DNA from: Bacteroidetes bacterium RIFCSPLOWO2_12_FULL_35_15
GTDB lineage: Bacteria; Bacteroidota; Bacteroidia; 2-12-FULL-35-15
Direction of reading: 5' to 3'
Assembly: GCA_001769385.1 (NCBI GenBank)
Contig: MEPB01000055.1
Location: forward strand, 1-39,196
Length of the DNA: 39,196 bases
Shown here in pieces: positions 1 through 39,188 of this stretch. The notes under the pieces were generated by a model that had not been told where the DNA came from, ran no database searches, and saw nothing but the letters and a program-made list of their open reading frames with translations. The stretch's first letter is position 1. Each line of letters begins with the position of its first letter. Both the position numbers and the translations under genes were made by a program.

Positions 1-84
1 AAAATATTTGAACTCTTCCTCTATAATGCACTACTAACAAACAAAGTTAAACCAATTGCTACCTGTTAATATGACATTGCCCTC
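1..84 (+). repeat. Left copy of an 84-bp terminal inverted repeat
   Basis: These 84 bases are the exact reverse complement of 39105-39188 near the other end of the window. Identity is complete across the repeat and stops sharply after base 84, where the next base is T here and G in the other copy. No open reading frame or hairpin within it explains the conservation. Read outward from the window, both ends run into the same sequence in the same direction. The likeliest meaning is the edge of a multi-copy element such as an insertion sequence that lies beyond both ends. Other readings are an invertible segment or an assembly fold-back. Confidence 0.95.
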
Positions 85-86
85 TT

Positions 87-105
87 GGAGGGGGTAGGGG
101 GAGGG
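87..105 (+). other. G-rich tract able to form a G-quadruplex
   Basis: The tract has G-runs of 2, 5, 5 and 3 separated by A, TA and A (GGAGGGGGTAGGGGGAGGG). That is striking in such an AT-rich window. It begins two bases inside the edge of the terminal repeat and lies about 85 bases upstream of the DUF3467 start. The same kind of GGAGGGGGTAGGGGGAGG string is, from memory, a common dispersed intergenic repeat in Bacteroidota. A quadruplex is only a possibility. Confidence 0.5.
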
Positions 106-109
106 AAAT

Positions 110-145
110 AAAGAGGGACGACAGAAATGTTTGTCCCTCTTTTGT
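110..145 (+). terminator. Strong hairpin with T-run upstream of the DUF3467 gene
   Basis: A perfect 10-bp stem pairs AAAGAGGGAC (110-119) with GTCCCTCTTT (133-142) around a 13-base loop. It is followed by more T and then TTATAA. The shape fits an intrinsic terminator for a transcript arriving from the repeat side. It could equally be a leader structure, because it ends about 45 bases before the start codon at 188. A weak -7-like box (TAACTTTA, 157-164) follows it, which favours termination of upstream transcription followed by a new start. Confidence 0.5.
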
Positions 146-187
146 TATAAAAACTTTAACTTTACACACATTTTAAAAAATACAATC

Positions 188-499
188 ATGGAAGAGCAAA
201 ATCAAAATCAATTAAACATTGAACTAAGCGAAGAAATAGCAGACGGAATTTATTCAAACCTTGCTATTATTACACATTCAAATTCTGAATTTGTAATTGA
301 CTTTATTAAAATGATGCCGGGTGTTCCAAAAGCAAAAGTAAAATCACGTATTGTAGTAACTCCTCAACACGCAAAACGTTTGATGAAAGCTTTGAAAGAT
401 AACATCTCAAAATTTGAGCAGGTTCATGGCGCTATTAAAGATACCGATATGCCAAATGTGTTGCCAATGAATTTTGGTGGACCAACTGCTCAGGCGTAA
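188..499 (+). CDS. DUF3467 family protein
   Basis: This is a small soluble protein of 103 residues with no signal peptide or membrane segment. The central stretch (IADGIYSNLAIITHSNSEF, then a phrase about FIKMMPG and a C-terminal VTPQHAKRLMKAL) is the pattern of DUF3467, a family common in Bacteroidota whose function is unknown. I chose the ATG at 188 over an in-frame ATG at 131. The extra 19 residues do not resemble the family, and they would be read through the hairpin at 110-145. A weak -7-like box TAACTTTA at 157-164 would give a leader of roughly 17 bases. The gene stands alone, with 124 bases before the next one. Confidence 0.85.
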   Translation: MEEQNQNQLNIELSEEIADGIYSNLAIITHSNSEFVIDFIKMMPGVPKAKVKSRIVVTPQHAKRLMKALKDNISKFEQVHGAIKDTDMPNVLPMNFGGPTAQA

Positions 500-623
500 T
501 TTTTTTTTGATTTATAAAATGTGAGAGGCTGCCTGTTGTAATTCATAATTACCGTTTGTCAAAATTGTAATTGTTGAATCTATTTCTTTTAGCATATTCG
601 CATAACCAAAAACATAAATACGA

Positions 624-1778
624 ATGAATTTTAATAAATACTTTTTTATTGCGGCAGCTGTAACCTTAGGTTTTAATATAACTGCTCAGACACTTACCAA
701 CAAAAAAGATGGTAATTATAAATTTACGGTAGTTAAAAATTTAGAAGCTACTGAAGTTCAGAATCAAGCTCAATCAGGCACTTGCTGGACATTTTCCTCG
801 CTTTCATTTTTCGAATCGGAATTGTTACGCATGGGAAAACCAAAAGTGAACTTATCTGAAATGTTCATAGTCCGCAATTCATATCCTGATAAAGCAGATA
901 AATATGTACGTATGCATGGACTTATTAACTTTGGCCCTGGTGGCGCATTTCATGATGTTGCCTATGTAATAAAAAATTATGGTATTGTGCCACAAGCAGC
1001 ATATAATGGTTTCGTAAATGGAGAGAAAGAAATCAATCATAATGAACTTGATGCAATGCTCAAGGCAGAGGTAGATGTTGTTGTAAAGGCAAATAAAATC
1101 ACCAGAGGATGGGCAAAAACTGTAAATGCAACGTTAGATGCCTATTTAGGGAAAGCTCCTGAAACATTTGATTATATGGGTAAACAATATACTCCAAAAT
1201 CTTTTGCACAATCTTTGGGATTGGACATGAATAATTACGTTGAACTAACTTCATTTACGCACCATCCGTTTTATACAAAATTTGCAATTGAAGTTCAGGA
1301 TAACTGGTCCTGGGATGAGGTGTACAATGTTCCGTTAAATGAATTAACAGATGTAATTGATAATGCAATTATGAATGGATATTCTGTTGCATGGGGTGCT
1401 GATGTTAGCGAAAAAGGATTTTCATTTAAGAATGGAGTAGCAATTGTCCCTGATCTGGATTGGATTGATGTGAAGAAAGAGAAAATTGATTCTATTATCC
1501 TTAATCCAGGCAAGCAAAAAGAAATTACACAAGCAATGCGCCAGGAAGCATTTGATAATTACGAAACTCAAGATGATCATGGGATGCACATTATTGGAAT
1601 TGTTAAAGATCAAAATGGTACAAAATATTATATTGTAAAAAATTCATGGGGTATAAAAAACAATGATTGTGATGGTTATTTTTATGTTTCTGAAGCTTTT
1701 GTGAAATATAAAACTACAGACATTATGTTGCATAAAGATGCTGTAAAGAAAGATATTGCTAAGAAATTAGGGTTCTAA
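624..1778 (+). CDS. Secreted papain-fold peptidase, C1B (bleomycin hydrolase/aminopeptidase C) family
   Basis: The protein has 384 residues. Residues 1-21 form a signal peptide ending ITA-Q, so the enzyme is exported. The papain-fold catalytic set is complete: Gln48 and Cys54 in QAQSGTCW, His319 in DDHGMHIIG and Asn340 in KNSWG. The long region between the Cys and His blocks and the C-terminal phrase IMLHKDAV are typical of the bleomycin hydrolase branch, which usually has aminopeptidase activity. Exported versions are common in Bacteroidota and probably serve peptide breakdown in the periplasm. A paralogue lies at 11585-12823. It is followed by its own terminator at 1789-1825. Confidence 0.9.
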   Translation: MNFNKYFFIAAAVTLGFNITAQTLTNKKDGNYKFTVVKNLEATEVQNQAQSGTCWTFSSLSFFESELLRMGKPKVNLSEMFIVRNSYPDKADKYVRMHGLINFGPGGAFHDVAYVIKNYGIVPQAAYNGFVNGEKEINHNELDAMLKAEVDVVVKANKITRGWAKTVNATLDAYLGKAPETFDYMGKQYTPKSFAQSLGLDMNNYVELTSFTHHPFYTKFAIEVQDNWSWDEVYNVPLNELTDVIDNAIMNGYSVAWGADVSEKGFSFKNGVAIVPDLDWIDVKKEKIDSIILNPGKQKEITQAMRQEAFDNYETQDDHGMHIIGIVKDQNGTKYYIVKNSWGIKNNDCDGYFYVSEAFVKYKTTDIMLHKDAVKKDIAKKLGF

Positions 1779-1788
1779 AAAAATGTTC

Positions 1789-1825
1789 AAAGTTCAAAGC
1801 CTTGTTTGGTTTTGAACTTTTTTTT
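1789..1825 (+). terminator. Intrinsic terminator after the first C1B peptidase
   Basis: AAAGTTCAAAGCC (1789-1801) pairs with GGTTTTGAACTTT (1808-1820) with one mismatch, followed by a run of T to 1825. It sits 11 bases after the stop codon. The flanking A-run makes it usable from the minus strand as well, where the convergent SPOR-domain gene ends at 1875. Confidence 0.85.
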
Positions 1826-1874
1826 ATTGTTAAAGAACACAAATTGGACGATGAGCTTTCTGACTTTAAAATTC

Positions 1875-2714
1875 TTACTTCACAATTTTTCCATTCTCGA
1901 AAGAAACAATAAATGCTCCATTGAAGCCCTTATCAATCATTTGTTTTTTACGTTTTGCAGCATCTTCGTAGGATGAAAAATTACCACTGAAATGTTTAGT
2001 CATTCCATTGTCAAGAGTAATGGTGGAGTGTTCCGGAACACCTGTAATTTTTGGTTTTAAGTTATAGGCACCAACCTGTACACGAAATGTTTTGCCTGGC
2101 GATGAAGGAATAGCGGTAACAGGTGTTTTAGAGCTAAGTGGCAGCACAGGTGTTTTTGTTGTGGGTTCTTTTTTTGCTTCCTTTTTTGACATTTCTCTTG
2201 ATTTAGCCAGTGCTGCAGCTTTTGCCGCTTCTGCATTTGCCGCATCTATTTTAGCCGCTTCTTTTCTTATAGCCGCTAACTTTGCAACTTCAGCTGAATT
2301 GTCAATAATAATAGTTTTGTTTTCAAGATCAAAAGCTTTACGCTCATTATTATAAATGTAGGATACTTTCCCGCCTAATATTTTTGCCCCGTTTGCTGCT
2401 TCGTGCACCATAATTTTATAACTAACAGTAAATGTTAATTCACCGGGAGGTGCAATCCATACTATTTTTGCTCCATTTTCTGAAAAAGTAAAACTTCCTC
2501 CTTTGCTATCTATTTCTTTTGCAGTAAATCCTTCCGGAAGTGGTTGAAAAAATTTCATAAAGCCGTTTATTTGACCTTTGTTGATAGTAACCTCAACTAT
2601 AAATTCAGAATTGGCAGCAGCGTTAGCCGGTAGTTTTTGTGTTGCAGTCAATTCTTGTGCAAATGAGATATTAACTGCAAAAAACAAAAAAGCAAATGCG
2701 ATGTGTTTTATCAT
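1875..2714 (-). CDS. Exported protein with C-terminal SPOR-like domain
   Basis: The protein has 279 residues with a signal peptide at 1-19 (FAQ cut). Residues 25-135 form a beta-rich, Ig-like region containing FFQPLPEGFTAKEID. Residues 142-182 are an Ala/Lys/Glu-rich coiled-coil stretch. A Pro/Thr/Ser linker leads to residues 208-279, which look like a SPOR domain (FRVQVGAY..., then a helix DAAKRKKQMIDKG and a final strand). SPOR domains bind denuded peptidoglycan, which suggests a periplasmic, envelope-associated role. The Ig-like part is unassigned. The Ala-rich helix could be a spacer across the periplasm. It stands alone and is transcribed toward the C1B peptidase gene. Confidence 0.75.
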   Translation of the reverse strand: MIKHIAFAFLFFAVNISFAQELTATQKLPANAAANSEFIVEVTINKGQINGFMKFFQPLPEGFTAKEIDSKGGSFTFSENGAKIVWIAPPGELTFTVSYKIMVHEAANGAKILGGKVSYIYNNERKAFDLENKTIIIDNSAEVAKLAAIRKEAAKIDAANAEAAKAAALAKSREMSKKEAKKEPTTKTPVLPLSSKTPVTAIPSSPGKTFRVQVGAYNLKPKITGVPEHSTITLDNGMTKHFSGNFSSYEDAAKRKKQMIDKGFNGAFIVSFENGKIVK

Positions 2715-2835
2715 AAGATAAAAATTATGAATTCAAAATTACTTAAAAAAATGTTAATTTGGCTATGAAATAAAACCCAAGAAGGAAAAAACTACGAAAA
2801 AACAAACTCAAATAGTATCCCCCGAACAAGCGCGT

Positions 2836-3993
2836 ATGCTTTTATTGCAAAGTCAAGGCTTACTGAAGTTCCATACTGGTAAAGCGGAAATGACTGCATT
2901 GTCTATTATTGAACATTTAGGATATGTACAAATCGATACATTGGCTGTTGTTGCCCGGGCCCATCATCACACACTTTGGACCCGGTTTTCGGAGTATAAT
3001 GAGCAAATTCTTACCGAACTTTTAGAAAAAGATAAATCAATCTTCGAATATTGGAGTCATGCTGCATCTTATTTACCAATGAGCGATTACCGTTTTTCGT
3101 TGCCACGGAAAAAAGATTATGCGGATGGTAAATCGCATTGGTTCGGACAGGATAAAAAAATGAATACGTATGTTATTGACAGAATAAAAGCAGAAGGCGA
3201 ATTGCAATCAAAAGATTTTGAATTCAAACGAAGTGCGAATGCAAATTGGTACGAATGGAAACCTGCCAAACGAGCTTTGGAACAACTTTTTATGGAAGGT
3301 AAGTTAATGGTGGCTAAGAGAAAAGGGTTTCAGAAAGTATATGATCTTACGGAGCGTGTTTTGCCAAACACTGTTGATATTTCATTCCCGACTCAAAAGG
3401 AAATTGCGGAGCACCTGATCATGAAAAATATTCGTGCCTATGGTCTGGTTCAGGAAAAAGAGATCACTTATTTGCAGCCCGGCTTAAAAGATTCTGTTAG
3501 CAAGTGTTTAAGACAACTATTAAAAGAAGGAGAGTTACTCGAAGTGAAAATTGAAGATCTACAAAATGAACTTTTTTATACAAGCAAAAAACAATTAAAA
3601 ACACTAAATAAAATAGAATATCCTGATTCCCTTCATTTACTTTCACCTTTTGATAATTCAGTGATACAACGAAAACGCTTGCAAACAATTTTTGGTTTCG
3701 ATTACCAGATTGAGTGTTATGTTCCCGAAGCAAAACGCAAGTTTGGTTATTTTACTTTACCTGTTTTGTATAATGATAAATTTGTTGCCCGTTTAGATCC
3801 CAAAGCTGATCGTGCTTCAAAAACGTTTTATGTAAAATCAATTCATTTTGAAAAAGGGTTTAAACTGGATGGAAAATTTAATCGTCTTTTTGCAGAAAAA
3901 TTAAAACAATTTGCAGAATTTAATGGATGTAATACTATAGTGATTGATAAAGCTGAAAAAAACTGGAAGAAAGAAATAAAAAAATTACTATGA
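2836..3993 (+). CDS. YcaQ-like winged-helix DNA glycosylase family protein (5' end probably frameshifted)
   Basis: The 385 residues match the winged helix-turn-helix YcaQ/DUF1006 family. Recognisable parts are the N-terminal LLLQSQGL, VQIDTLAVVARAHHHTLWTR and the central EYWSHAASYLP. Escherichia coli YcaQ unhooks interstrand DNA crosslinks, so a role in DNA repair is likely. The annotated ATG at 2836 is almost certainly internal. The frame stays open upstream to the stop at 2755 and encodes KKQTQIVSPEQAR, matching the family start, but it contains no normal start codon. An ATG at 2765 lies in another frame and meets TAA at once. One extra A in the A-run at 2768-2770 would give a start reading MKIKPKKEK and join the frames. 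Confidence 0.8.
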   Translation: MLLLQSQGLLKFHTGKAEMTALSIIEHLGYVQIDTLAVVARAHHHTLWTRFSEYNEQILTELLEKDKSIFEYWSHAASYLPMSDYRFSLPRKKDYADGKSHWFGQDKKMNTYVIDRIKAEGELQSKDFEFKRSANANWYEWKPAKRALEQLFMEGKLMVAKRKGFQKVYDLTERVLPNTVDISFPTQKEIAEHLIMKNIRAYGLVQEKEITYLQPGLKDSVSKCLRQLLKEGELLEVKIEDLQNELFYTSKKQLKTLNKIEYPDSLHLLSPFDNSVIQRKRLQTIFGFDYQIECYVPEAKRKFGYFTLPVLYNDKFVARLDPKADRASKTFYVKSIHFEKGFKLDGKFNRLFAEKLKQFAEFNGCNTIVIDKAEKNWKKEIKKLL

Positions 3994-4066
3994 AATGAAA
4001 ATGGATTCTGTTGGTTCCTCCTTGTTCATTCCACAACACAACTAAAGTATAGAGTTTTACTTTCCC

Positions 4067-5542
4067 TTAAATTACAGCAATTTTAACGTTATAAGTGTTT
4101 TCAGAATTGCTTAAACTAATGATATAAAACCCGGTTTTCAAAGTAAAGGAAAAAATTATTTTGTTTCCTTGTATCGAATAGTTTTGAATGATCTCTTGTC
4201 CGCTAATAGTATAAATCTTTATAGATTTTAATTCGATTAAATTAATTCCTTTTGTTGTAATACTGTTATCATCCTTCGAAAAGTAGAGGATTGCTTCTTC
4301 AGTAGTTATTGACTTGATAGAAGTTATAGCTGTGAGAGTAACAAACAATTCAGCAACATCATTTACGCAGTTATTTGATGTTGTTTCAGTAACACTAATG
4401 TTTCCACTTGAAGTTCCAAAATTTACGGTAATGCTGTTGGTGCCTTGTCCGCTAATAATTGTTGCTCCAGGCGGAACATTCCAGGTGTAAGTTGAACCTG
4501 CAAGAAAAGGCACACTATAAACATTGTTTGTCGCATTTTCGAAAAGTGAAATTGCTCCGGTAATTAAATACGGACTTGTCAGAATATCAAAAAAATCAGC
4601 CGCCCAATAGGTGGAGTGAAAGTTGTTTTCTTTAATGGCATACGTACCTGTTGCACCACCTTTGCGAGGACAAGATCCTGTATCCACTGCTATTGCATGA
4701 CCCATTCCTGTAATTTTATAATAATAAACAACAGGATTATTCAAATTGTCGTTATACACAGTTTTTACTATTGCGGCATTTCCCTGAAAGGAATTGATAG
4801 TTGAATCAGCTGTTTGGTCAGCATTGTTCAGATTGGTCCATTGTTTAATGAGTTCCAATGCATTGTTACTATTAACTGTAAAATCCAGTGTGCCATGAAA
4901 AATTGCTAAATGCGGATAGGGGTTTGTATATCCCGGATTTTGCAATCGCACTAAATCGCCCCATTGTTGTGGTGTTTTTATAACACTTCCGTTCATTGCC
5001 GAAAAGGATGCGAAACTTGATGTTGCTGCTTTGTATGGTAATCCTGCCATTACAGCGCCTTTGTTAAAAATTTGCGGATAGGCAGCAAGCATTACTACGG
5101 TCATTGCTCCACCAGCCGACAATCCTGTTACCATTATTTTTGAAGGATCGATTGCATAATTCGAAGTCATATAATCCACCATTTGTTTAACTGATAATGC
5201 TTCGCCTTGATTTTTATTTACATCCAATGTATCAAACCAATTAAAACATAAACTACTGTTATTAGTACTCAATTGCTCCGGATACACCACATAAAATTTG
5301 TGTCGGTCCGCTAATTTATTCCAGCCGCTTTGTATGGCATACATACCTGCATTTTGTGTGCAGCCATGCATTGCAATTACTAAGGGTGCAGCAGAACTTA
5401 TACCACTAGGGATATGTGTGTACATGTTTAAATTACCGGGATTGCTGCCAAAACCACTTACTTGTGTAAGTCCGCTTTGAGCGAAGAAGTCATTATTAAT
5501 TCCTAGAGATAACATTATGAAAAGTATTGTTTTTGATCTCAT
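4067..5542 (-). CDS. Secreted PHB depolymerase-type esterase with type IX sorting domain
   Basis: The protein has 491 residues and a signal peptide at 1-21. Residues 30-320 are an alpha/beta-hydrolase of the poly(3-hydroxybutyrate) depolymerase/LpqC esterase family. The catalytic triad can be read as Ser142 (GLSAGG), Asp220 (HGTLDFTV) and His282 (GMGHA), and the oxyanion region is MHGCTQN at 58-64. Residues about 330-400 form a PKD-like beta domain. The last 85 or so residues have the pattern of a Por secretion tail (IKIYTISGQEI ... GFYIISLSN), so the enzyme is sent out by the type IX system. The true substrate could be a polyester or an acetylated or feruloylated polysaccharide. Confidence 0.85.
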   Translation of the reverse strand: MRSKTILFIMLSLGINNDFFAQSGLTQVSGFGSNPGNLNMYTHIPSGISSAAPLVIAMHGCTQNAGMYAIQSGWNKLADRHKFYVVYPEQLSTNNSSLCFNWFDTLDVNKNQGEALSVKQMVDYMTSNYAIDPSKIMVTGLSAGGAMTVVMLAAYPQIFNKGAVMAGLPYKAATSSFASFSAMNGSVIKTPQQWGDLVRLQNPGYTNPYPHLAIFHGTLDFTVNSNNALELIKQWTNLNNADQTADSTINSFQGNAAIVKTVYNDNLNNPVVYYYKITGMGHAIAVDTGSCPRKGGATGTYAIKENNFHSTYWAADFFDILTSPYLITGAISLFENATNNVYSVPFLAGSTYTWNVPPGATIISGQGTNSITVNFGTSSGNISVTETTSNNCVNDVAELFVTLTAITSIKSITTEEAILYFSKDDNSITTKGINLIELKSIKIYTISGQEIIQNYSIQGNKIIFSFTLKTGFYIISLSNSENTYNVKIAVI

Positions 5543-5722
5543 TTATTTGAAAATTTAAACAAATTGTATGAACCCCAATTATTAGAATAAAGGTATAAAA
5601 TGATATGATAACCTTTGTTCTTTGTTTGAATAATAATGAATTAATTAACCTTAGGATCTATTCACAATGCTATTAGGTTATTATCTTCGATTTGCATAAA
5701 TTTATGCCTCAAATAAACCGTA

Positions 5723-8179
5723 ATGAAATTTCTGTATTCTATTATTTTTTCTGTAATTTTTGTAGTCAATTATTTTGATAGCAATGCACAAGTGTGTCAG
5801 CAAAATAAAAATAGCGAACAATCAGGGAAGGCAACGTGGCAGCTCTTACAGGTCCAGGCTTCGAATACAAGAAGTGATACGGTTGATGTTTTAAAATATA
5901 CTATCAACCTAAACATTACTGATTTTACTACCAACATTATTGCCGGAAACACCGTTGTTAAATTTACTCCTAAAATAAATGGCATCACAAAATTAAATTT
6001 AGATTTGTTGGTTATGATAATTGATTCTGTGAGACAGAACAATATGGTCCTCACTTATTCATACAACGATACCTTGCTTCAGGTCGATCTGCCGGTTGCT
6101 TATACTATAAATGATACTTCTTCAGTAACTGTTTATTATCATGGAACTCCTCAAATAGATCATCCTTCTGGGTGGGGAGGTTTCTATTTTCAAAGTGGAT
6201 ATGCATATAATTTAGGAGTTGGCTTTTCTGCAAATCCGCATGTGTATGGAAGAGTTTGGTTTCCTTGTTTTGATAATTTTGTAGAGCGCTCATCTTATGA
6301 ATTTAATATTACCACTAATGCCGGAAAAACATCTTATTGTAATGGGTATTTAGCCAATGATACAATAGATGGAGGAGGAAACAGAACACGTAAATGGATT
6401 TTGAATGAACCAATTCCTACGTATTTGGCATCTGTTTCTGTTGCAGCCTATGCACAAATAAATAAAACTTTTAATGGAATAAATGGTACTGTTCCAATTA
6501 TAATTGCTGCACTTCCGACAGATACTACAAATGTGAAAAATTCATTTGTAAATTTGAATACAGCATTAGCTACATTCGAAAATCGTTTTGGGCCTTACGT
6601 TTGGAATCGTGTTGGATACTGTATGGTGCCATTTAGTTCGGGTGCAATGGAACATGCAACCAATATTACGTATCCAAAATCTCTGGCTACAGGAAATTTA
6701 ACCTATCAGGATGTAATGGCTCATGAACTTTCGCATCATTGGTTTGGTGATTTGATAACATGCCGTACTGCAGAAGACATGTGGCTAAATGAAGGATGGG
6801 CCAGGTATTGTGAATTTATTTTTAATGAAGCATTGAGTGGATATACCGGTTATTTAAATGCAGTTCGAACAAATCATGAAGATAATTTACATTTCAATAC
6901 TCCTAAAGAAGGGGTTTTAACGCTGGCAAACATCCCACAGGATTTTACTTATGGTGATCATGTATATAACAAAGGTGCTGATATTGCTCATACCATGCGT
7001 GGTTACATGGGTGATAGTTTGTTTTTTTATTCGATAAAAATTTATCTTGCACAAAACCAGTTTACAGATATGTCGAGTGCAGATTTTATGAATATACTTA
7101 CCACAGCTAGCGGAATGAACATGTCTGATTTTTTTAATGATTGGGTCTTTAATCCCGGATGGCCTCATTTTTCAATTGATTCAACAGCTGTTGTTCCTGC
7201 CGGTGCTAATTACAATGTGACTGTTTATGTGAAGCAAAAATTAACAGATGCTCCTAATTATTTTACAAATGTTCCATTGGAAATTACTTTTAAATCGGCA
7301 AACTGGACGGAGCAAAACCAAAATATCATAATGTCCGGAGCAAATTCATCATTTAATTTTACTGTTCCATTTGATCCTATTTTTGTTGCGGTAAATATGG
7401 GTGAAAAAATAAGTCATGCTGTTGCACCGGATTATAAAAAAATAAAGACTACAGGTAGCTATTCTTTTACCAATGCAAAAATGACTATCAATGTTCAAAG
7501 CCTTTCTGATTCAGCATTTGTACGCGTTGAGCATAATTATACCGCACCGGATGGGTTTAAATCTTTTGGCAACACGTACCGGTTATCACCAAATCATTAT
7601 TGGAAAGTAGATGGCTTTTTGTCTTCCATTTTTAAAGCAAAAGCTACTCTTAATTATGAAGGAAGGACATCGTCTTTTTCCGGAAATTTTTGGCTGGACA
7701 ATAATTTAATAAATGCTGTTGAAGATAGTCTTGTATTGATGTATCGCAAAAATGCAGGAAATGAATGGAGTGTTTATCCTTATTATACCAAAAATATGAT
7801 CACAAATAATAATGATAAACGTGGCATCATTACTATTGATTCATTGCAATTAGGGGAATATGTTTTTGCGATGAAAGATTATACCATGGGAATTTTGCAT
7901 CCGGCCGAAGTTAATACATTGCCTCTGTTGAAAGTATTTCCAAATCCTACCAAAGATATATTAACTGTTGAATTAGATGGTGTCCTTTTAAAATCGTCAA
8001 CTAATTCAATGTTGGTCATTTTTGATTCTTCCGGAAAAATTATTTACAAAGAAAAACTTGATCCACATCGAAATACCATAAATATCAATACTTCTGCATA
8101 CAGCAGTGGAATATATACTGTTTCTGTTAAAGTGAAAGAGGCTGTGGTCTCAAAAAATAAATTTATTGTTGCGCATTAA
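5723..8179 (+). CDS. Secreted M1-family zinc aminopeptidase with type IX sorting domain
   Basis: The protein has 818 residues and a signal peptide at 1-22 (SNA-Q). The M1 core shows the substrate-binding motif GAMEH (307-311), the zinc site HELSHH (His334, Glu335, His338) with the third ligand Glu357 in LNEGWA, and the proton-donor tyrosine (Tyr415, YNKGA). The usual motif is GAMEN, so the last residue differs. After the peptidase core come beta domains. From about residue 735 there is a Por secretion tail (VFPNPTKDILTVEL ... GIYTVSVK), so the enzyme reaches the cell surface or medium. It is transcribed divergently from the esterase, with which it shares this fate. A weak -7-like box TATCTTCG lies at 5682-5689. 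Confidence 0.9.
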   Translation: MKFLYSIIFSVIFVVNYFDSNAQVCQQNKNSEQSGKATWQLLQVQASNTRSDTVDVLKYTINLNITDFTTNIIAGNTVVKFTPKINGITKLNLDLLVMIIDSVRQNNMVLTYSYNDTLLQVDLPVAYTINDTSSVTVYYHGTPQIDHPSGWGGFYFQSGYAYNLGVGFSANPHVYGRVWFPCFDNFVERSSYEFNITTNAGKTSYCNGYLANDTIDGGGNRTRKWILNEPIPTYLASVSVAAYAQINKTFNGINGTVPIIIAALPTDTTNVKNSFVNLNTALATFENRFGPYVWNRVGYCMVPFSSGAMEHATNITYPKSLATGNLTYQDVMAHELSHHWFGDLITCRTAEDMWLNEGWARYCEFIFNEALSGYTGYLNAVRTNHEDNLHFNTPKEGVLTLANIPQDFTYGDHVYNKGADIAHTMRGYMGDSLFFYSIKIYLAQNQFTDMSSADFMNILTTASGMNMSDFFNDWVFNPGWPHFSIDSTAVVPAGANYNVTVYVKQKLTDAPNYFTNVPLEITFKSANWTEQNQNIIMSGANSSFNFTVPFDPIFVAVNMGEKISHAVAPDYKKIKTTGSYSFTNAKMTINVQSLSDSAFVRVEHNYTAPDGFKSFGNTYRLSPNHYWKVDGFLSSIFKAKATLNYEGRTSSFSGNFWLDNNLINAVEDSLVLMYRKNAGNEWSVYPYYTKNMITNNNDKRGIITIDSLQLGEYVFAMKDYTMGILHPAEVNTLPLLKVFPNPTKDILTVELDGVLLKSSTNSMLVIFDSSGKIIYKEKLDPHRNTININTSAYSSGIYTVSVKVKEAVVSKNKFIVAH

Positions 8180-8190
8180 TTTAGTAAGTG

Positions 8191-8211
8191 AACAGATGAA
8201 AATCTGTTTTG
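8191..8211 (+). terminator. Short GAAA-loop hairpin with T-run between the M1 peptidase and UbiD genes
   Basis: AACAGAT (8191-8197) pairs with ATCTGTT (8202-8208) around a GAAA tetraloop, followed by a few T. It sits 11 bases after the M1 peptidase stop and only a few bases before the UbiD-family start at 8216. It could be a weak terminator or a structure affecting initiation of the downstream gene. Confidence 0.4.
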
Positions 8212-8215
8212 ATAT

Positions 8216-11473: not shown

Positions 11474-11571
11474 GTCATTTCGACTCCTTCGACTTCGCTC
11501 CGGATAAACTCTGGGAGAAATCTTATTTTTTGTTAAACATTATTGAGATTTCTCCTTCCAGTCGAAATGAC
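11474..11571. repeat. MITE-like intergenic inverted repeat, copy A
   Basis: The outer arms are GTCATTTCGAC (11474-11484) and GTCGAAATGAC (11561-11571). The inner arms are GGAGAAATCT (11514-11523) and AGATTTCTCC (11546-11555). Between the left arms lies CTCCTTCGACTTCGCTCCGG, a string typical of dispersed intergenic repeats in Bacteroidota. The 98-base unit would fold into a long bulged hairpin in RNA or single-stranded DNA. It encodes no protein. Copy D at 22275-22367 is clearly related. Confidence 0.85.
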
Positions 11572-20929: not shown

Positions 20930-21285
20930 AGCATAAAGGTAAGCAATTACAGAAAACGAAAAAAGTGTGCTTTTATTTTAACCTTTATTGCTTGTTAGCT
21001 AAATCGATTCCCGCGAAATTAAATGTTCAACAATTAAGTGGCTGTTTAAATTTCCCTAAAATAAAATACAATATAACATAAACTGCTTGGTCACTTCGTT
21101 GCGACCCCTTCGACTTTGCTCAGGATAAACTCAGGGAGCGTATCGAGAAGGCGGGGAGCATTGCGAAACAATAAGCTCTCGCACTTTCTCGATATGCCTT
21201 CCTGAAAAAGGAAGGCTACTCGAAATGACAACCCGCAGTGAGATAACAAATAATTTGAACAAAATTTAAACAGGCTCTAAATGTT
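20930..21285. repeat. 356-base gap with nested MITE-like element, copy C
   Basis: The outermost arms are GCTGTTTAAATTT (21041-21053) and AAATTTAAACAG (21262-21273). Inside are GGTCACTTCG (21090-21099) opposite CGAAATGAC (21221-21229), and then TATCGAGAA opposite TTCTCGATA. A small palindrome, CCTTCC...GGAAGG, lies near 21197-21214. The whole unit of about 230 bases can fold into one long imperfect hairpin. It separates the Omp85-like and SIMPL-like genes, both on the minus strand. No protein-coding potential was seen. Confidence 0.75.
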
Positions 21286-22274: not shown

Positions 22275-22367
22275 GTCGACTCCTTCGACTTAGCTTAGGA
22301 TAAACTTCAGGAGACATCTCAATAAAATTAAGCTAAAAATGAGATTTCTCCCTCTGGTCGAAATGAC
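22275..22367. repeat. MITE-like intergenic inverted repeat, copy D
   Basis: This is related to copy A along its length: the left part is GTCGACTCCTTCGACTTAGC and the right end is GAGATTTCTCCCTCTGGTCG followed by AAATGAC. Compared with copy A the left arm lacks ATTTC (GTCGAC instead of GTCATTTCGAC), so this copy appears damaged at one end. The flank ATTCTGTC before the left arm is shared with copy A. Next to the right end lies ATTTAAACAGC (22388-22398), the inverse of the GCTGTTTAAAT motif seen around copy C. Overall this suggests a family with variable extensions. Confidence 0.8.
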
Positions 22368-22437: not shown

Positions 22438-22842
22438 CTATTTATAAAAGAAAAAGTAGAAAAACAGTATGGCTTTCTGTGTATCCACATTATCAATTCT
22501 TCCCAGGGTGGAGCCTGATTTGTCGTATAAATAGTTGCCATCAACTCTTCCTAAAGTGCTACCGGAACCATCGTAAATGTAATTACCATCAATACGACCA
22601 ATTGTGCTTCCGGAGCCATCGTAAATATAATTGCCATCAATTCTTCCAATTGTACTACCGGAACCATTGTAAATATAATTGCCATCAAATCTCCCGATCG
22701 TACTACCGGAACCATCGTAAACATAATTGCCGTCAATTCTTCCTACAGTGCTGCCTGTAGCATCATATAAGTATTGGGCAAATGCTGTTGTTGTAAATTG
22801 CATTAATAAAATGCAAATTGCTGATGTGATAATTTTTTTCAT
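22438..22842 (-). CDS. Exported six-repeat protein (beta-flower type)
   Basis: The protein has 134 residues with a signal peptide at 1-22 (AFAQ). Residues 24-119 are six consecutive 16-residue repeats of the form YxYDGSGSTIGRIDGN. This motif resembles the 4-fold beta flower domain that I recall from Bacteroidota. The tail is strongly aromatic and hydrophobic (AILFFYFFFYK). The DNA repeats are nearly identical 48-mers (22486-22773), so copy number could change by slippage. Function is unknown, and an exported envelope or surface role is likely. A -7 box TATTTTTG on the minus strand lies at 22866-22873. Confidence 0.8.
   Translation of the reverse strand: MKKIITSAICILLMQFTTTAFAQYLYDATGSTVGRIDGNYVYDGSGSTIGRFDGNYIYNGSGSTIGRIDGNYIYDGSGSTIGRIDGNYIYDGSGSTLGRVDGNYLYDKSGSTLGRIDNVDTQKAILFFYFFFYK
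22486..22773 (-). repeat. Six 48-bp tandem repeats within the beta-flower protein gene
   Basis: Six units of exactly 48 bases encode the 16-residue repeats. The marker string CCGGAACCATCGTAA or a close variant recurs every 48 bases at 22562, 22610, 22658 and 22706. The first and last units diverge most (TG for DG, and DKSG). Since 48 is a multiple of three, gain or loss of units would keep the frame. Confidence 0.9.
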
Positions 22843-29279: not shown

Positions 29280-29300
29280 TACAATTGTATTTTATAGAAA

Positions 29301-29332: not shown

Positions 29333-29340
29333 CGGTTTTT

Positions 29341-30488: not shown

Positions 30489-30497
30489 TTCAATTAA

Positions 30498-31145: not shown

Positions 31146-31151
31146 TTGTTG

Positions 31152-32072: not shown

Positions 32073-32074
32073 TC

Positions 32075-32758: not shown

Positions 32759-32778
32759 GTTACAGTTTTTGTTTTCTG

Positions 32779-33771
32779 TTAATGTTTTAAAAATTGCTTT
32801 GAATAGGTTGTAAAATTATGATGTTCTTTATTATTTTCAATAAATTGTTCTAATTTTTTAATAGAGTAGGGGGATAGTGCTTTCGGGTGACCTATAACAA
32901 CCATGTGTTCCCTTTTCTTTTTTAGCAACTTACTTAATACTCTTCCTAATAGATGCACGTTGTAACCATCAAGGGAAGCAGGATTGTTTGTAAACTTAGT
33001 TAAAAGATTTTTTCGGTAACCGGGAGCCGGCATTGCCCTGCCATCTCCCAAAGGTTTATGTAATTTCGGATTTTTTCGCCCTAAAAAAAATAATCTCCAA
33101 AAGAAAAGTGGGGAATTGCGAATTCCGCTGATTGGAACTTCAGTAAAATATCCGTCAGGGTTTTCAATTGTTGGTTCATCATCAAAATGGTAAATATCTT
33201 TATCAGGAGCAGTTCTAAAATCATAGGAATAATGTTCAGAACTGAATGATCCATTTTTAAAAACACTACTGTCCAGGTTTATCTGATTTTCAATAAAAGC
33301 TTTTTTTAATTTTGAAAATGGCTGCAAACACCACCCTCCGGCACGAAAAGCGAAAATAGTTTTTCCTGTAATTTCAGTAAGAACTTTTTTGTAACGGTAA
33401 ACAATATCCGCAATTTCTGTTTCCGAAAAATCAATGAGTTTATAACGTTTAATATCAATGATCCATTTTTCACCGTTGTAATAAGAATCTTCCCAATGTG
33501 GATGAATGTGTAATTGAATATCATGTCCTGAATCTGAAAGTAATTTAACCTGTTCTGTTATTTTTTTATAATCACCCTCCAGTTGTGGATATTTTTTACG
33601 GTATTCGTCTAACTTTAACAGGAAACCGCAATCAACAAAAAATGAAAAAAATACCTGATGTTTGTTAGCAATCCGGATCAATTCAGAAGTAGGATAAATA
33701 ATACATTTCTCAACTGTACCATGGTTTTCACCAAAGTAAATTTCATAATCGAGTGTGATGTATATATTCAT
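32779..33771 (-). CDS. NodB-fold polysaccharide deacetylase-like protein (WbmS-like)
   Basis: The protein has 330 residues without a signal peptide. It keeps the (beta/alpha)7 NodB signs: Asp8 in ITLDYEIYFG, the metal site QLHIHPHWED with His88, His90 and His92, FRAGGW at 142-147, and late GHPKAL. The opening LDYEIYFGENHGTVEKC resembles the WbmS group known from LPS O-antigen clusters. Such proteins are thought to deacetylate amino sugars in the cytosol. It is not closely similar to the NodB-fold protein at 34751, so the cassette carries two different members. Confidence 0.8.
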   Translation of the reverse strand: MNIYITLDYEIYFGENHGTVEKCIIYPTSELIRIANKHQVFFSFFVDCGFLLKLDEYRKKYPQLEGDYKKITEQVKLLSDSGHDIQLHIHPHWEDSYYNGEKWIIDIKRYKLIDFSETEIADIVYRYKKVLTEITGKTIFAFRAGGWCLQPFSKLKKAFIENQINLDSSVFKNGSFSSEHYSYDFRTAPDKDIYHFDDEPTIENPDGYFTEVPISGIRNSPLFFWRLFFLGRKNPKLHKPLGDGRAMPAPGYRKNLLTKFTNNPASLDGYNVHLLGRVLSKLLKKKREHMVVIGHPKALSPYSIKKLEQFIENNKEHHNFTTYSKQFLKH

Positions 33772-33851
33772 TTTATTTGATTTGTAAAATAGTTAATGAG
33801 TTAAATGTGGAAAAGTGTATCTAAATTAACTTATTTAACCTAATTACCCAA

Positions 33852-34748
33852 TTACTTATTTCCAAACGGAGTGTACATCGTAACTCCTCTTTCATTATAA
33901 TTTTTTATCATCACCTCCAGCATTTTGTTGGCATCGATCAACATACTTTTTGCTTCAGCAATTTCTCCATTTACTAAAACATTTGCTTTTTCAAACATTG
34001 GCTTTAAGGCATCACAATTTCGTTTTGCAGAAAAATCTGGATTGTGAACTTTTGTTTTCATCATTAATTTATTTCCTTCTGCATCGATCATTTTTACATC
34101 AAATATTTTTTGATCATAAACAGGAAACTTAAATTTAACAGCATCTTCAAGTGTATGTAGATTCGTGCAGGCTCCATTGAGTGTAGTCCCGAGCATTAAG
34201 ATCTTTCCGTTTTTTGCACATAGTTTTCGGAATGGTGAATTTTCGGTATAGGGAGTTAATTCACCAAAGTGTGTATTGGTATAGTATTCAGCCAATGGAC
34301 CTTTAGCAGCAACACAATCTGTTGGGTGAAAACTTCGATAAACACCATCCAGGTTTCTGAAATATTCGGTGACGCTTCCCATTTGGGAGGGTGTATTTTT
34401 TATATCAAAAACAGGATCTTCTTCTAAATAGGTTTTATGTCGTCCGGTTGCCGGAAATGTTGGAAACAATAGTGTTCCTTCTGCACCGATGGTTTCAAAT
34501 AATGCTTCTACAACAGTTTTGGCTCCACCTTCAACGTAGCCAATTTTACTCAAGCTGCTATGTACTAAAACTGAATCACCCTGTTTAATTCCGATTTTTT
34601 TTAGATCTTCAATTAATTTTTGTTTCGTGATTCCTTTTTGATTTTTCTGCTGTTTCAGCAATTGTTTTCTTCTCTGATTTTTTTTCAGTTGCTTTGCCCA
34701 TTCAAGAACAAATTTGGGAGAATATTTTAAAAGGATTTTTTTTATCAT
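33852..34748 (-). CDS. AAC(3)-family N-acetyltransferase
   Basis: The protein has 298 residues. Family landmarks are LVHSSLSKIG (HSS at 63-65), LLFPTF, SFHPTDCVAAKG (His141) and GTTLNGACTNLHTLEDA with His198 and Glu201. Although the family is named for aminoglycoside resistance, members inside polysaccharide clusters acetylate nucleotide-linked amino sugars. The setting here, with two deacetylases, an SDR and WecB around it, favours that role. I do not call it a resistance gene. It starts two bases after the upstream NodB-fold gene ends, so the two are tightly coupled. Confidence 0.8.
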   Translation of the reverse strand: MIKKILLKYSPKFVLEWAKQLKKNQRRKQLLKQQKNQKGITKQKLIEDLKKIGIKQGDSVLVHSSLSKIGYVEGGAKTVVEALFETIGAEGTLLFPTFPATGRHKTYLEEDPVFDIKNTPSQMGSVTEYFRNLDGVYRSFHPTDCVAAKGPLAEYYTNTHFGELTPYTENSPFRKLCAKNGKILMLGTTLNGACTNLHTLEDAVKFKFPVYDQKIFDVKMIDAEGNKLMMKTKVHNPDFSAKRNCDALKPMFEKANVLVNGEIAEAKSMLIDANKMLEVMIKNYNERGVTMYTPFGNK

Positions 34749-34750
34749 TA

Positions 34751-36055
34751 TTATTTTACAGCGTATTCAACCATTTTTTCATACACAGATCTCCAGCCTA
34801 ACCATAATTTTTGATTGTTCAAAGAATCATTGTGGAACAAACTAATAAAAACTCCATTTACAGCTTTCGTTTCATCGATCAAGGGTTTTATTTTTTGGAA
34901 TGCTTCTTCCGGTTGAACTTTCATCGCATATTTTAAGGTACCTTCCATGACTGCAAAAGGATGAATTTTTAATTTAGTTTCTATATCCATATCCAGATCA
35001 TAAAAATTGAAAGGCGTGCAAATGCTTGCCCGAAATCCAATTTGTGATGCGTATCCCATCGTGTAATCATCTGTAATATCCAGATCTATTAAGTTACGAT
35101 AGGTTTCCGGCAGTGTTAATTTTAAAAAATGTTGGCGACTAATTGTTACATCGCGATGCAATACTTTTGATAATCTTCCTACTTCTTTTTTTAATTGTTC
35201 TCTGCTTTTGTTTGAGCCGTAAGAAGGATGAATTCCAACATACGCATAATCACCTATCATTTTAATTAGGGATTGAAATTTTTTGCTTTCGATCGGAAGA
35301 TTTTTATCATTTACTCCATAATCACCAAGCAGAAAAAAATAGATACTTCTGAATTTGTATTTTTTTAAGACTTCCAATTGAAAATCATACGTGTCGTAAG
35401 GATCTTTTTGGATTCGTAATAAAACTTTTGTTCGCTCGGCAATTTCCGAAAAATCGAATTTTGAAATGGATTTCAAATATCCTCCAATACTACGTGTAAA
35501 CCCTTTTTCACGGTAAGCATAAGCATTGTCAATATCTATCGTAGATACAAATTCATGTTTTTTTTCAGGAAAAATTAAGTGTGGATACTTATTTTGTAAT
35601 AATTCTTTGACCCAATTTGTCCAGATATTTACGACCGGTTTTTGTAAAAATCCATTGATGAAAGCAATGCTGTCTTTTGCATCAAAACGGTCGTGTTCAT
35701 CTCTTATGTGGGGCAAATACTCTTCGTAACGACTAACCAAATAAAAACTGGCAGCAAAAATATCAAAAGGTAATGCCGAGATCTTCCCTGTTGCAAAAAA
35801 TACTTTACAGCTATTGTGATCGAATATGGATATATTTTGTTCGCTGATTCCTGTTTCAAATAATAAATTGCGGGAAGAAAAAAATAATTCATCACAAACA
35901 GGCAGGTTTGTATAACTTAATTTTGCACCATTGAATAATTTGAATTCTTCGGTATCCGAAATCAAAGTAAAATCAACGCCAAGTATATCTTTAAAAACCA
36001 AATTAAAGATGTACTTGTTACGATGAGTTATTTTATGTGTGTATAGGAGTAACAT
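34751..36055 (-). CDS. Polysaccharide deacetylase family protein with N-terminal DUF7033-like region
   Basis: The protein has 434 residues and no signal peptide. Residues 1-165 form a separate N-terminal region (VSRYEEYLPHIRDEHDRFDA at about 108-127) that I recall as typical of a Bacteroidota deacetylase group. The NodB-like part follows, with Asp174 and Asp176 in STIDIDNAYA, GIHPSYGSN (His276) and GFRAS at 340-344. The metal site is less canonical than in classical NodB. It is probably a cytosolic deacetylase of a glycan or nucleotide sugar. It lies between wecB, with a MITE-like element in the gap, and the AAC(3)-family gene. Confidence 0.78.
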   Translation of the reverse strand: MLLLYTHKITHRNKYIFNLVFKDILGVDFTLISDTEEFKLFNGAKLSYTNLPVCDELFFSSRNLLFETGISEQNISIFDHNSCKVFFATGKISALPFDIFAASFYLVSRYEEYLPHIRDEHDRFDAKDSIAFINGFLQKPVVNIWTNWVKELLQNKYPHLIFPEKKHEFVSTIDIDNAYAYREKGFTRSIGGYLKSISKFDFSEIAERTKVLLRIQKDPYDTYDFQLEVLKKYKFRSIYFFLLGDYGVNDKNLPIESKKFQSLIKMIGDYAYVGIHPSYGSNKSREQLKKEVGRLSKVLHRDVTISRQHFLKLTLPETYRNLIDLDITDDYTMGYASQIGFRASICTPFNFYDLDMDIETKLKIHPFAVMEGTLKYAMKVQPEEAFQKIKPLIDETKAVNGVFISLFHNDSLNNQKLWLGWRSVYEKMVEYAVK

Positions 36056-36067
36056 ATCTTTTTTTTT

Positions 36068-36138
36068 GTCATTTCTAATGTAAAAAAAATCTCGTGTTTT
36101 TTTTCATTCATGAGTTTTCTCCCTGCGGTTGAAATGAC
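36068..36138. repeat. MITE-like inverted repeat, degraded copy G
   Basis: GTCATTTC (36068-36075) and GAAATGAC (36131-36138) are the outer arms, with AGTTTTCTCCCTGCGG near the right end. The inner left arm (GGAGAAAT) is replaced by an A-rich run. It sits between wecB and the deacetylase gene, in the middle of the gene train. Confidence 0.65.
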
Positions 36139-36146
36139 ATGCAGGC

Positions 36147-37301
36147 TTAAACTATATATTTTAAGATTTTTTCACAAATAAATTCAGCTGCTGTTCCTTC
36201 TCCAAAAAGACCCGGGAATTGTAAAGCGGTCGTTTTTGAAAAATAGTTATAGGCATCAACAATTTTTGTTTCATCTGCATCAGCAATTTTTGCTGAACCG
36301 CAATTTACTAATTCAACCCATTCGGTTTCTGAACGTAAAATAATACAAGGTTTTTGGAAGAAAAAGGCTTCTTTCTGAACTCCTCCCGAGTCGGTCATAA
36401 TTAGTTTTGCATTTTTTTCCAATGCGATCATTTCTAAAAATGAAACAGGTTCAATTATATTAATATACTTACTTGTTTTAATGGCAGTATATAATTGGGA
36501 AGAGAGGTTTTTGGGTAATAGTTTTGCTGTACGCGGATGCAAAGGAATGATGAACCTGATTTTATTTTCGGTTGCTATTTTATTTATAGCATTGAAAAGA
36601 GTAGTTAAGCGAATAGGTTCATCAGTGTTGTTGTTTCGGTGAATAGTTGCTAAAACAAATTCACCTTTTTGTAAATTATGAGTTTTCAGAATACTTGTTT
36701 TTTCTTCTGCAATGGCTGAAAAGTAAAGACTATTGTCATACATAACATCTCCACAATGATAAATTTTAGGGTTATCAATTGAAAAAGGTGCCTGATTGTT
36801 TTCCTTAAATCCTTCTTTTAGTAAATTATTGAAACCGGCTTTTGTTGGTGTAAATAGCAAGGTGGAAACATGATCACATAGGATACGATTTATTTCTTCC
36901 GGCATTGATTTGTTGAAGGACCGCAATCCCGCTTCAATATGAACCACCGGGATCGAAATTTTTGATGCTGCTATAGCGCCCGCCAATGTAGAGTTTGTAT
37001 CTCCATACAAAACAATTGCGTTTGGTTTTTCTTTTAGTAAAATTTCTTCGATGCCTTCAATCATCGTTGCTGTTTGCTTTCCATGACTTCCGGAACCAAC
37101 ATTCAAATTGTAATTGGGGTGGGGGATAGCTAATTCATCAAAAAACACCTGCGACATGTTTTCATCATAATGTTGCCCGGTATGAACAATTACTTCCTTG
37201 ATCCGGTCAGCAAATTTTCTTTTAATAGCTCTGCTTAATGCTGCTGCTTTAATGATCTGTGGACGAGCTCCTATAATTGTTAAGATTTTGAAATGCTTCA
37301 T
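36147..37301 (-). CDS. wecB: UDP-N-acetylglucosamine 2-epimerase
   Basis: The protein has 384 residues of the WecB/MnaA family. Landmarks are LTIIGARPQIIKAAALSRAI at the start, HTGQHYDENMSQVFFDEL, YGDTNSTLAG, HIEAGLRSFNKSMPEEINR and TDSGGVQKEAFFF. It converts UDP-GlcNAc to UDP-ManNAc, the precursor of ManNAc and ManNAcA units in surface polymers. The usual partner WecC is not in the window. It opens the polysaccharide part of the train, 49 bases downstream of the phospholipase-like gene. Confidence 0.95.
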   Translation of the reverse strand: MKHFKILTIIGARPQIIKAAALSRAIKRKFADRIKEVIVHTGQHYDENMSQVFFDELAIPHPNYNLNVGSGSHGKQTATMIEGIEEILLKEKPNAIVLYGDTNSTLAGAIAASKISIPVVHIEAGLRSFNKSMPEEINRILCDHVSTLLFTPTKAGFNNLLKEGFKENNQAPFSIDNPKIYHCGDVMYDNSLYFSAIAEEKTSILKTHNLQKGEFVLATIHRNNNTDEPIRLTTLFNAINKIATENKIRFIIPLHPRTAKLLPKNLSSQLYTAIKTSKYINIIEPVSFLEMIALEKNAKLIMTDSGGVQKEAFFFQKPCIILRSETEWVELVNCGSAKIADADETKIVDAYNYFSKTTALQFPGLFGEGTAAEFICEKILKYIV

Positions 37302-37350
37302 ATGTTTATATCCTGCATGGGGATTGACTTAATTTACAGTTTGAAGGAAA

Positions 37351-38337
37351 TTAATCATTATGTCCTTTTATTTCGGAACGATTTCCATTTTTCCAAAGCT
37401 CTTCTTCTGCTTTTTGTGCAAGTTTTAAGGAGTCGGAAATATCTTTATCGTTGAATCTATTCAGATTCGGTTTGCCTGCATTTATCCAAGCTGTGTACCA
37501 CAAACTACCAATAGAAATAATTGCGGCACGCATTCTCCGTTCCACCATGCCATTTAATAATTTATCATAATCTTCGGTATATTCTTTTGAATATACTTTC
37601 ATGATTGTGGCTCCACGGTTTTCAAAACTGTATTTTTTATCCTGAGGATACTTTGCATTTAATTCTGCTTCGAATCTTAGTACGGAATCAACTGCTGCAT
37701 GACTTGTTTTTACTGCATTCCAGGCTGCATCGATTGGTTTATCTATATACTTTGCTTTCCCGATCCAATAGTCATAACCTTCTGATTTCATTTCAGGGAT
37801 CCTTGATTCCCAAAAACCATGAATTCCTTTTTGATTCGTCATTTGGCCGTTATAATTTTCTGTTGTGTGTAACGGGACATGTGAATCGGCAATGTAATGA
37901 CCCAGATCGGCAGAATAATGCAGGATCAGATCAAGGTTTTCATCTTTAAAGGCTTCGGTTAACCGATACACCATTTTCTCAATGTGCCAGGGAACAATAC
38001 CATATGCTTTTAGTGTGTCTTCCGAATATTTTTTTATTGCCGATTTCCAAAACTTCGGTACTGAATCAAAAGGAAAACTCCCATAATGGTCTATATCAAT
38101 GTAATGGCGCGGTGCTTCATCAGGATTTGCATATCTTCTCTTATCAGGATCAACGGCATGTTGTGAAATATATTCAATGTGTTTTTTGTAAAACCCGATC
38201 ATTTCTGCCGGCAAGGTAAAAACCGCCATCCTGTTTATTTTTTGATGCGCATAAAATCCCCAGGAATAGGCAGGTTGATTATTGGGAATAAAAAACAACA
38301 GCAGTGCAAGGAAAAGTATTAAAATAAATTTGCGCAT
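37351..38337 (-). CDS. Exported zinc-dependent phospholipase C/S1-P1 nuclease-like protein
   Basis: The protein has 328 residues with a signal peptide at 1-25. Cleavage after AYS would leave Trp26 as the mature N-terminus, as in zinc-dependent phospholipase C and S1/P1 nucleases, where the N-terminal Trp binds zinc. Other likely ligands are His31, Asp63, His118, His147 and Asp151 (LGHYIADSHVPLH), His173 and Glu177 (HGFWE). Phospholipid or nucleic-acid phosphodiester cleavage is possible, and sequence does not decide between them. It starts 25 bases after the comB stop and is probably co-transcribed. Confidence 0.82.
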   Translation of the reverse strand: MRKFILILFLALLLFFIPNNQPAYSWGFYAHQKINRMAVFTLPAEMIGFYKKHIEYISQHAVDPDKRRYANPDEAPRHYIDIDHYGSFPFDSVPKFWKSAIKKYSEDTLKAYGIVPWHIEKMVYRLTEAFKDENLDLILHYSADLGHYIADSHVPLHTTENYNGQMTNQKGIHGFWESRIPEMKSEGYDYWIGKAKYIDKPIDAAWNAVKTSHAAVDSVLRFEAELNAKYPQDKKYSFENRGATIMKVYSKEYTEDYDKLLNGMVERRMRAAIISIGSLWYTAWINAGKPNLNRFNDKDISDSLKLAQKAEEELWKNGNRSEIKGHND

Positions 38338-38362
38338 TTATATATTTGTTTTATGAGTATTC

Positions 38363-39085
38363 TTAAACCATTTTTACCAGATATTTCCCTTCTAAAACAG
38401 GAATAATAGTTGTTTGGTCGAGTGTAAGACAATATTTTATATCGTGCTTTAGTTTTAATGCCGCCAAACGTTCGGCATGCGATGAATACCTGATATATTT
38501 ATAGGGATTCAGGTGAGCCGATTGATATAAAATACTGGTTGCCAAAGCTGCATCACCTGATTTATATTTGTTACTTTCAGATAAAAGATTATCCGCCACA
38601 GCACCTGCAAATAATGAATCTTCAATATTAAAACGGTTTTTCCATCCGGAACATAAAAGTAAAACATTTCTGTTTTGTGATTTAAGCCAATTGCATAAAG
38701 ATGTAATATTTGTAAATGCACCAATCACCACTTTATAAGCATGACGCGATGCTTCAATTGCCTGAGTGCCATTAGTTGTTGAAATAACAACAACTTCTCC
38801 TTTTATTTTTTCAGACATATAGGAATAAGGTGAATTTCCAAAATCGAAACCATCTAATGCAATTCCATTACGTTCGGCACCTACCAAAAATCCTTGTTTT
38901 TTGTATTCGGTTGCTTCATCAATACTCGCAACCGGAATAATTTTATCAACTCCATAATGAAAAGCAGTACAAATTGCAGATGTGGCCCGAAGAATGTCAA
39001 TGATCACTACGATTGCATCATCCTTATGATATACCGGATACAAATGAGGTGATAAACAAACATCAACTGTTAATTTTTTTTCCAT
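38363..39085 (-). CDS. comB: 2-phosphosulfolactate phosphatase family protein (ComB)
   Basis: The protein has 240 residues from the ATG at 39085 (MEKKLTVDVCLSPHLYPVY). A longer in-frame start at 39133 would run into the terminal repeat and does not fit the family. Landmarks are VVIIDILRATSAICTAF, VGAERNG, LDGFDFGNSP and VVVISTTNGTQAI. ComB removes phosphate from 2-phosphosulfolactate in the coenzyme M and sulfolactate pathways. In Bacteroidota the family is common, and its role there may relate to sulfonate metabolism (for instance sulfonolipid-type products), which is inference. It is the first gene of the train, 19 bases inside the repeat edge. Confidence 0.9.
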   Translation of the reverse strand: MEKKLTVDVCLSPHLYPVYHKDDAIVVIIDILRATSAICTAFHYGVDKIIPVASIDEATEYKKQGFLVGAERNGIALDGFDFGNSPYSYMSEKIKGEVVVISTTNGTQAIEASRHAYKVVIGAFTNITSLCNWLKSQNRNVLLLCSGWKNRFNIEDSLFAGAVADNLLSESNKYKSGDAALATSILYQSAHLNPYKYIRYSSHAERLAALKLKHDIKYCLTLDQTTIIPVLEGKYLVKMV

Positions 39086-39104
39086 ATAAAAACCCCACTC
39101 TTTC

Positions 39105-39188
39105 GAGGGCAATGTCATATTAACAGGTAGCAATTGGTTTAACTTTGTTTGTTAGTAGTGCATTATAGAGGAAGAGTTCAAATATTTT
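39105..39188 (-). repeat. Right copy of the 84-bp terminal inverted repeat
   Basis: This is the exact reverse complement of bases 1-84. Its inner edge (39105, starting GAGGGCAATGTCATATTAAC) lies only 19 bases upstream of the ComB start codon at 39085. The boundary therefore sits in the ComB leader. Eight further bases (39189-39196) follow that are not represented at the left end, so the repeat may continue outside the window on the left. Confidence 0.95.

Follow-up and report, generated by a model that had tools for sequence, protein, structure and literature searches.

At its two ends the window, a stretch of 39,196 bp that constitutes the complete contig C55 in a 110-contig draft genome of 5.39 Mb, almost certainly carries the 3′ ends of two separately inserted, oppositely oriented copies of one high-copy insertion sequence (IS) of the IS1595 family. 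One copy would lie between rpoC and the DUF3467 gene and the second would separate gcvT from comB, the transposase genes of both reading into the window. Both copies were presumably inserted through ordinary DDE transposition, the target being cut with an 8-bp stagger, and the assembler would have been unable to cross the ~965-bp repeat, leaving the contig to stop 81 and 89 bp inside them. A striking long-range repeat within a single contig resolves in this way to ordinary assembly breakage.

Extent and copies of the terminal repeat

Bases 1–84 and 39105–39188 are exact reverse complements of each other (repeat pair I1, 84 nt, 100% identity), as had been reported in the preliminary description of this DNA, and the second-listed inverted-repeat pair of the window, I2, spans 44 nt at 84%. 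The repeat had also been said to bound the entire window, which holds in the sense that both arms are terminal, but the bounds in question are the two ends of the contig. The contig contains the repeated element only in truncated form, and at the right end the element continues through bases 39189–39196. On the inner side the element proper stops at base 81, and the match of other copies extends to base 81, 82, 83 or 84. Bases 82–84 (CTC) are target DNA, which is alike at two different target sites because targets mostly begin with CT.

A search for further copies, which had been suggested as a check, gave 26 matches to the 84-mer in its own genome, of which 25 are located at contig ends (at most 13 bases away) with 97–100% identity and one is internal to contig C98. 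The left end of the IS gave 25 matches, 24 of them at contig ends. We note that a 27th right end, comprising 9 element bases only, is present at the start of C48 and stands outside these counts.

An IS1595-family insertion sequence

The sole complete copy of the element is the one internal to C98, where it spans 965 bp (L031:1681–2645) and contains an open frame of 303 aa. Both termini of this copy carry GGCAATGTCCTAT in inverted orientation, imperfect beyond, and the copy is flanked on both sides by the 8-bp direct duplication CACGGAAA. The encoded transposase matches PF12762, the ISXO2-like/IS1595 transposase domain (E 1.3e-40, above its cut-off), as well as NF033547 of NCBIfam (216 bits versus a cut-off of 75), and its N-terminal zinc ribbon matches PF12760 (36.5 bits versus a cut-off of 25.4). 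In addition, a catalytic signature of the ISApl4 type (DE.Y.G, D, H.N.IE.FW) could be recognized by eye in the translation, as VDETYVGG, VSDGFGAY and HTNNIEGFWS. The features of IS1595 membership found in the element are the transposase domain, the zinc ribbon, the putative signature, the terminal inverted repeats and a duplication of ~8 bp. Judged by its sequence, the element is an ordinary, high-copy IS of the IS1595 family.

Both ends of the window encode the last residues of this IS1595-family transposase, 282–303 at the left end and 280–303 at the right end, and both read into the window. The 84-mer comprises the last 22 codons of the transposase, the stop codon and the right terminal repeat (together 81 bp), followed by 3 bp of target. 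A protein query against the assembly found a full match in C98 only, and otherwise end fragments and one distant match of 29% identity. Because the assembly lacks the inner part of the abundant copies and the C98 variant diverges from the other copies (88–90% identity at the right end, 96–99% at the left end), an intact transposase is presumed rather than read in the two window copies, which would share the interior of the complete C98 copy.

A close relative of the IS, with a transposase 89% identical, is found in the Bacteroidota MAG JAUXTT01 (L079:2921–3964), on the basis of which the genome of the window is itself probably that of a Bacteroidota. This copy also resides within a GC-rich palindrome, and a partial copy in the same MAG abuts a similar site. 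The 8-mers flanking the L079 copy, CTCTCAAG and CTTGAGAG, are reverse complements of each other and not direct repeats; it is possible that the copy has recombined or that it represents a joining error. For three Arcicella loci with distant homologues, a boundary finder that relies on exact 8-bp duplications returned only weak, chance-like pairs, a result of little weight, since the finder missed the ends of L079 too, although these are readily visible. When the Chitinophagaceae locus, along with eight loci from the same genus, was scanned for the terminal repeats of the present IS, no match was found.

Among described systems, the element resembles ISApl4 of Actinobacillus pleuropneumoniae in its transposase family, its terminal inverted repeats, its 8-bp direct repeats and its tens of copies, and for ISApl4 it is likewise described that matches to the ends of the element occur on multiple contigs in draft genomes (PMC12561309). 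The two differ in that ISApl4 measures 712 bp and is described as having duplications that are preferably A/T-rich (PMC12561309), whereas the IS studied here measures 965 bp and prefers symmetric sites that are C-rich on one side and G-rich on the other.

Target duplications name the neighbouring contigs

IS ends were paired by an exact match of the 8 bases outside each end, with 25 left ends set against 26 right ends. An exact partner exists for 24 of the 25 left ends, the exception being the start of C5, and for 23 of the 26 right ends, the exceptions being the starts of C95, C3 and C21; no partner pair agrees over 9 bp. Fifteen pairs are unique and one-to-one, including the C98 copy's own two ends, and some 8-mers are common to several copies. 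When the left-end duplications were shuffled by column (20,000 shuffles), the number of partners averaged 2.6 and never exceeded 10, compared with the 24 observed.

The left end of the window pairs only with the end of C19 (CTCTTGGA) and the right end only with the end of C75 (CTCGAAAG). In the shuffles, a chance partner arose for the left window end in 0.05% of cases, for the right (comB) end in 8.4% and for both in 0.005% (5e-5). At the C19 end, the IS begins 81 bp past the stop codon of a frame matching PF04998, the C-terminal part of an RNA polymerase β′-type subunit, and we took this frame as rpoC; at the C75 end, it begins 22 bp past the stop codon of gcvT (PF01571, PF08669). The junctions would thus have read rpoC–IS–DUF3467 (C19–window) and gcvT–IS–comB (C75–window) at the time of insertion. 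It is this insertion-time order that the pairing gives, the present orientation being unreadable from the assembly because the interior of the IS is collapsed.

The same gene neighbours recur in the genomes of relatives from the same genus, for which 29 loci were examined per junction. In all 29 loci gcvT adjoins comB, with spacers of 17–846 bp (the 29 exclude an additional genome in which the comB match was partial and which gave no locus), while rpoC adjoins DUF3467 in 13 of 29 and was not found beside it, within a stretch of up to 1.5 kb, in the other 16. In the closest relative, G023 (DUF3467 99% and comB 92% identical), an IS-free gcvT-CCCTCTCCCAACGGAGAGGGTTTTT-comB arrangement is present where the window's genome has CCCTCTCGAAAG–IS–CTCGAAAGAGTGGGGTTTTT, and the rpoC–DUF3467 spacer contains neither the IS nor the G-rich palindrome that surrounds it here. 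A transposase search of G023 at E ≤ 1e-60 gave no match. The IS-free state of G023, together with the 97–100% identity of 25 of the 26 right ends, would fit a recent expansion of the IS in the lineage of the window. On a larger scale, DUF3467 and comB are separated by ~75–165 kb in those relatives that carry both on one contig, and long-range gene order in relatives is therefore of no use for establishing the present orientation.

Two of the readings offered in the preliminary description, a segment lying between two oppositely oriented copies of one mobile element and a contig broken at a repeat node, describe the same event. Both are upheld by what is observed: the ends belong to an IS1595-family element, throughout the assembly 25 of the 26 matches to the 84-mer fall at contig ends, and the duplications tie the window to two contigs, which they name as its neighbours. 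Read together with the gene neighbours, the 8-bp target duplications indicate, with no need for long reads, which contig ends are likely to adjoin each other, and in practical terms they provide a partial scaffold of this genome.

Alternative origins of the inverted ends

Two copies in opposite orientation make it physically possible that recombination between them flipped, or regularly flips, the intervening 39 kb. Recombination between IS copies is described as a cause of rearrangements and as one of several reasons for a missing duplication (PMC11708052), and for ISApl4, 8-bp repeats are reported at every insertion except four, among which are those at an inverted region (PMC12561309). The non-matching 8-mers that flank the L079 copy could likewise reflect inter-copy recombination, or a joining error. 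In the window, however, each end has an exact duplication partner that agrees with the gene neighbours in relatives, and nothing suggests a flip. The inversion envisaged in the preliminary description is possible in principle, but it has left no sign here and we consider it unlikely. The accompanying proposal, that inversion would exchange the leaders of comB and the DUF3467 gene, does not apply, as both genes already lie just downstream of the same IS end; because comB (22 bp) and DUF3467 (106 bp) abut that same end, inversion would swap only DNA beyond the ~965-bp IS. Nor does the bounding of the segment by two inverted IS copies indicate that the 39 kb moved as a unit, as a composite transposon. 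A shared duplication would be expected at the outer flanks of such a unit, but these differ (CTCTTGGA on C19 versus CTCGAAAG on C75), and each instead matches the inner flank of its own IS copy, while the junction genes keep the two neighbourhoods found in relatives. With the matching outer duplication not found, this explanation was rejected as having next to no probability.

The terminal position of both repeat arms had also raised the prospect that an assembly fold-back or a chimeric read created the inverted ends. Such an artefact should have duplicated some of the adjoining unique DNA too, whereas the edge of the repeat coincides with the boundary of the IS, complete with terminal repeat and duplication, and the same sequence recurs at 25 contig ends, most of them differing in their flanks. 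Given the target-duplicated flanks, a fold-back is very unlikely indeed and was rejected. Finally, a contig that begins and ends in long inverted repeats might carry the termini of a 39-kb linear plasmid, phage or large transposon, but here the repeat belongs to a transposase gene that is present at many other contig ends, and the four genes at the junctions are rpoC/DUF3467 and gcvT/comB; on these grounds we rejected this explanation as well, its likelihood being negligible.

Features along the window

The features adjoining the two IS copies are collected in Table 1. The hairpin upstream of DUF3467 is probably the rpoC terminator, which now separates the IS from DUF3467, and it would probably stop transcripts leaving the IS before they reach DUF3467. 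A similar hairpin was recognized by eye in 13 of the 13 rpoC–DUF3467 spacers printed for relatives. An Rfam scan of the window at the gathering threshold gave no match, the hairpin included, and a tRNA scan of the window gave none either. Using a consensus for Bacteroidetes-type promoters, we found two candidate outward promoters, each with 2 mismatches, within the final 250 bp of the C98 IS, as well as two overlapping 2-mismatch candidates at the comB start.

Table 1. Coordinates of the features at the two ends of the window
Feature	Position	Strand	Remarks
IS1595-family IS right end, cut by contig start	1..81	+	last 22 transposase codons + stop, 1-69; right terminal inverted repeat ATATGACATTGCC, 69-81
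8-bp target duplication CTCTTGGA	82..89	+	partner copy at C19 end
G-rich half of target palindrome, joined site CCCCCTCTTGGAGGGGG	90..105	+	missing from spacer of nearest relative
Hairpin followed by T run, GAAA loop	110..142	+	-18.4 kcal/mol, z -4.9; probable rpoC terminator
DUF3467 gene, 103 aa (PF11950)	188..499	+	start codon 106 bp from IS edge
comB, 2-phosphosulfolactate phosphatase (PF04029)	38363..39085	-	start codon 22 bp from IS edge
8-bp target duplication CTCGAAAG	39100..39107	-	partner copy at C75 end
Second IS copy right end, cut by contig end	39108..39196	-	transposase residues 280-303 at 39123-39194

Two further repeats were observed within the window. Tandem 48-base repeats, with 16 residues per unit, occupy positions 22492–22779 within a predicted minus-strand frame (22438–22842). 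In addition, the CCTTCGACTTnGCTnnGGATAAACT repeat is present in three copies (11480–11523, 21101–21144 and 22276–22319) and is also found beside a copy of a dispersed palindrome in C98.

Target-site preference

The flanks of the 25 left and 26 right ends yield a symmetric consensus, CCCY-CTYNNRAG-RGGG, that is centred on the 8-bp duplication. For the 24 paired left ends, the joined sites were compared with CCCNCTNNNNAGNGGG, using the best partner where several share an 8-mer, and exhibit no mismatch in 5 cases, 1 in 4, 2 in 9, 3 in 5 and 5 in 1. Exact matches to the motif are rare, with 2 unoccupied in the assembly and 0 for a reversed-pattern control. When ≤2 mismatches are allowed, the motif shows no enrichment genome-wide (418 sites, a few of which are contig-end halves of occupied sites, versus 466 for the reversed-pattern control). 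The target preference is thus graded, since the motif at ≤2 mismatches is no commoner than the control and the joined sites vary.

Several insertions reside within a dispersed repeat with a CCCCC...GGGGG core, and others at sites without a clear hairpin. The comB-side insertion site corresponds in a relative to a hairpin followed by T (-15 kcal/mol, z -4.3). Among the 15 uniquely paired sites, 6 can form a perfect stem of ≥5 bp, compared with 12% of 5,000 sites drawn at random from the window as a control that was not matched for G+C, and the remaining 9 have a perfect stem of only 3–4 bp; a hairpin as the sole determinant of the target was consequently not upheld.

ISs that target palindromes (REP) have been described in other families, namely ISPsy8 (IS3), ISPa11, ISPpu9 and ISPpu10 (IS110), and ISRm22 (IS4) (PMC1525189). 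The present element may resemble these ISs, as they are described there, in that several of its copies occupy a fixed point within a dispersed palindromic repeat, but it differs in belonging to another transposase family and in its looser symmetric motif, with many sites that are not clear hairpins. With respect to targeting of the REP type, a symmetric consensus and several ends in one dispersed repeat are found together with stems of <5 bp at 9 of the 15 sites. Our tentative suggestion is that the element may seek GC-rich palindromes that are dispersed between genes and in part resemble terminator hairpins, via CCCY-CTYNNRAG-RGGG, although a loose preference for a symmetric sequence would account for the data just as well. 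If palindrome seeking were true, this mode of insertion would extend to a further DDE family, and the element would multiply with little harm to genes. An IS1595 element would then be a further palindrome-seeking case beside IS3, IS110 and IS4. The term IS1595 is absent from the main text of PMC1525189, and in the titles and abstract openings of the papers listed on IS1595 in combination with targets or palindromes we found no IS1595 element that targets palindromic repeats, which leaves the absence of such a report unproven. In biological terms the yield is modest, namely an IS1595 element that markedly prefers symmetric, GC-rich sites.

A dispersed repeat, one arm of which is the G-rich GGGGGCAGGGGGATGAAATTAAATAATTGAAATAGAGCC, gave at least 14 matches of ≥45 bases at ≥90% identity in the window's own genome, besides weaker ones. 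Its copies include G000 C110:27–130, C48:10–79, C2:9957–10027, C98:20638–20700, C98:23541–23603 and C60:46766–46832, among others. At least six copies abut an IS end, and the three unoccupied copies that were read carry a different centre of ~20 bp. At G000 C71:1859–2594, five matches of ~35 bases are clustered, suggesting a short repeat array.
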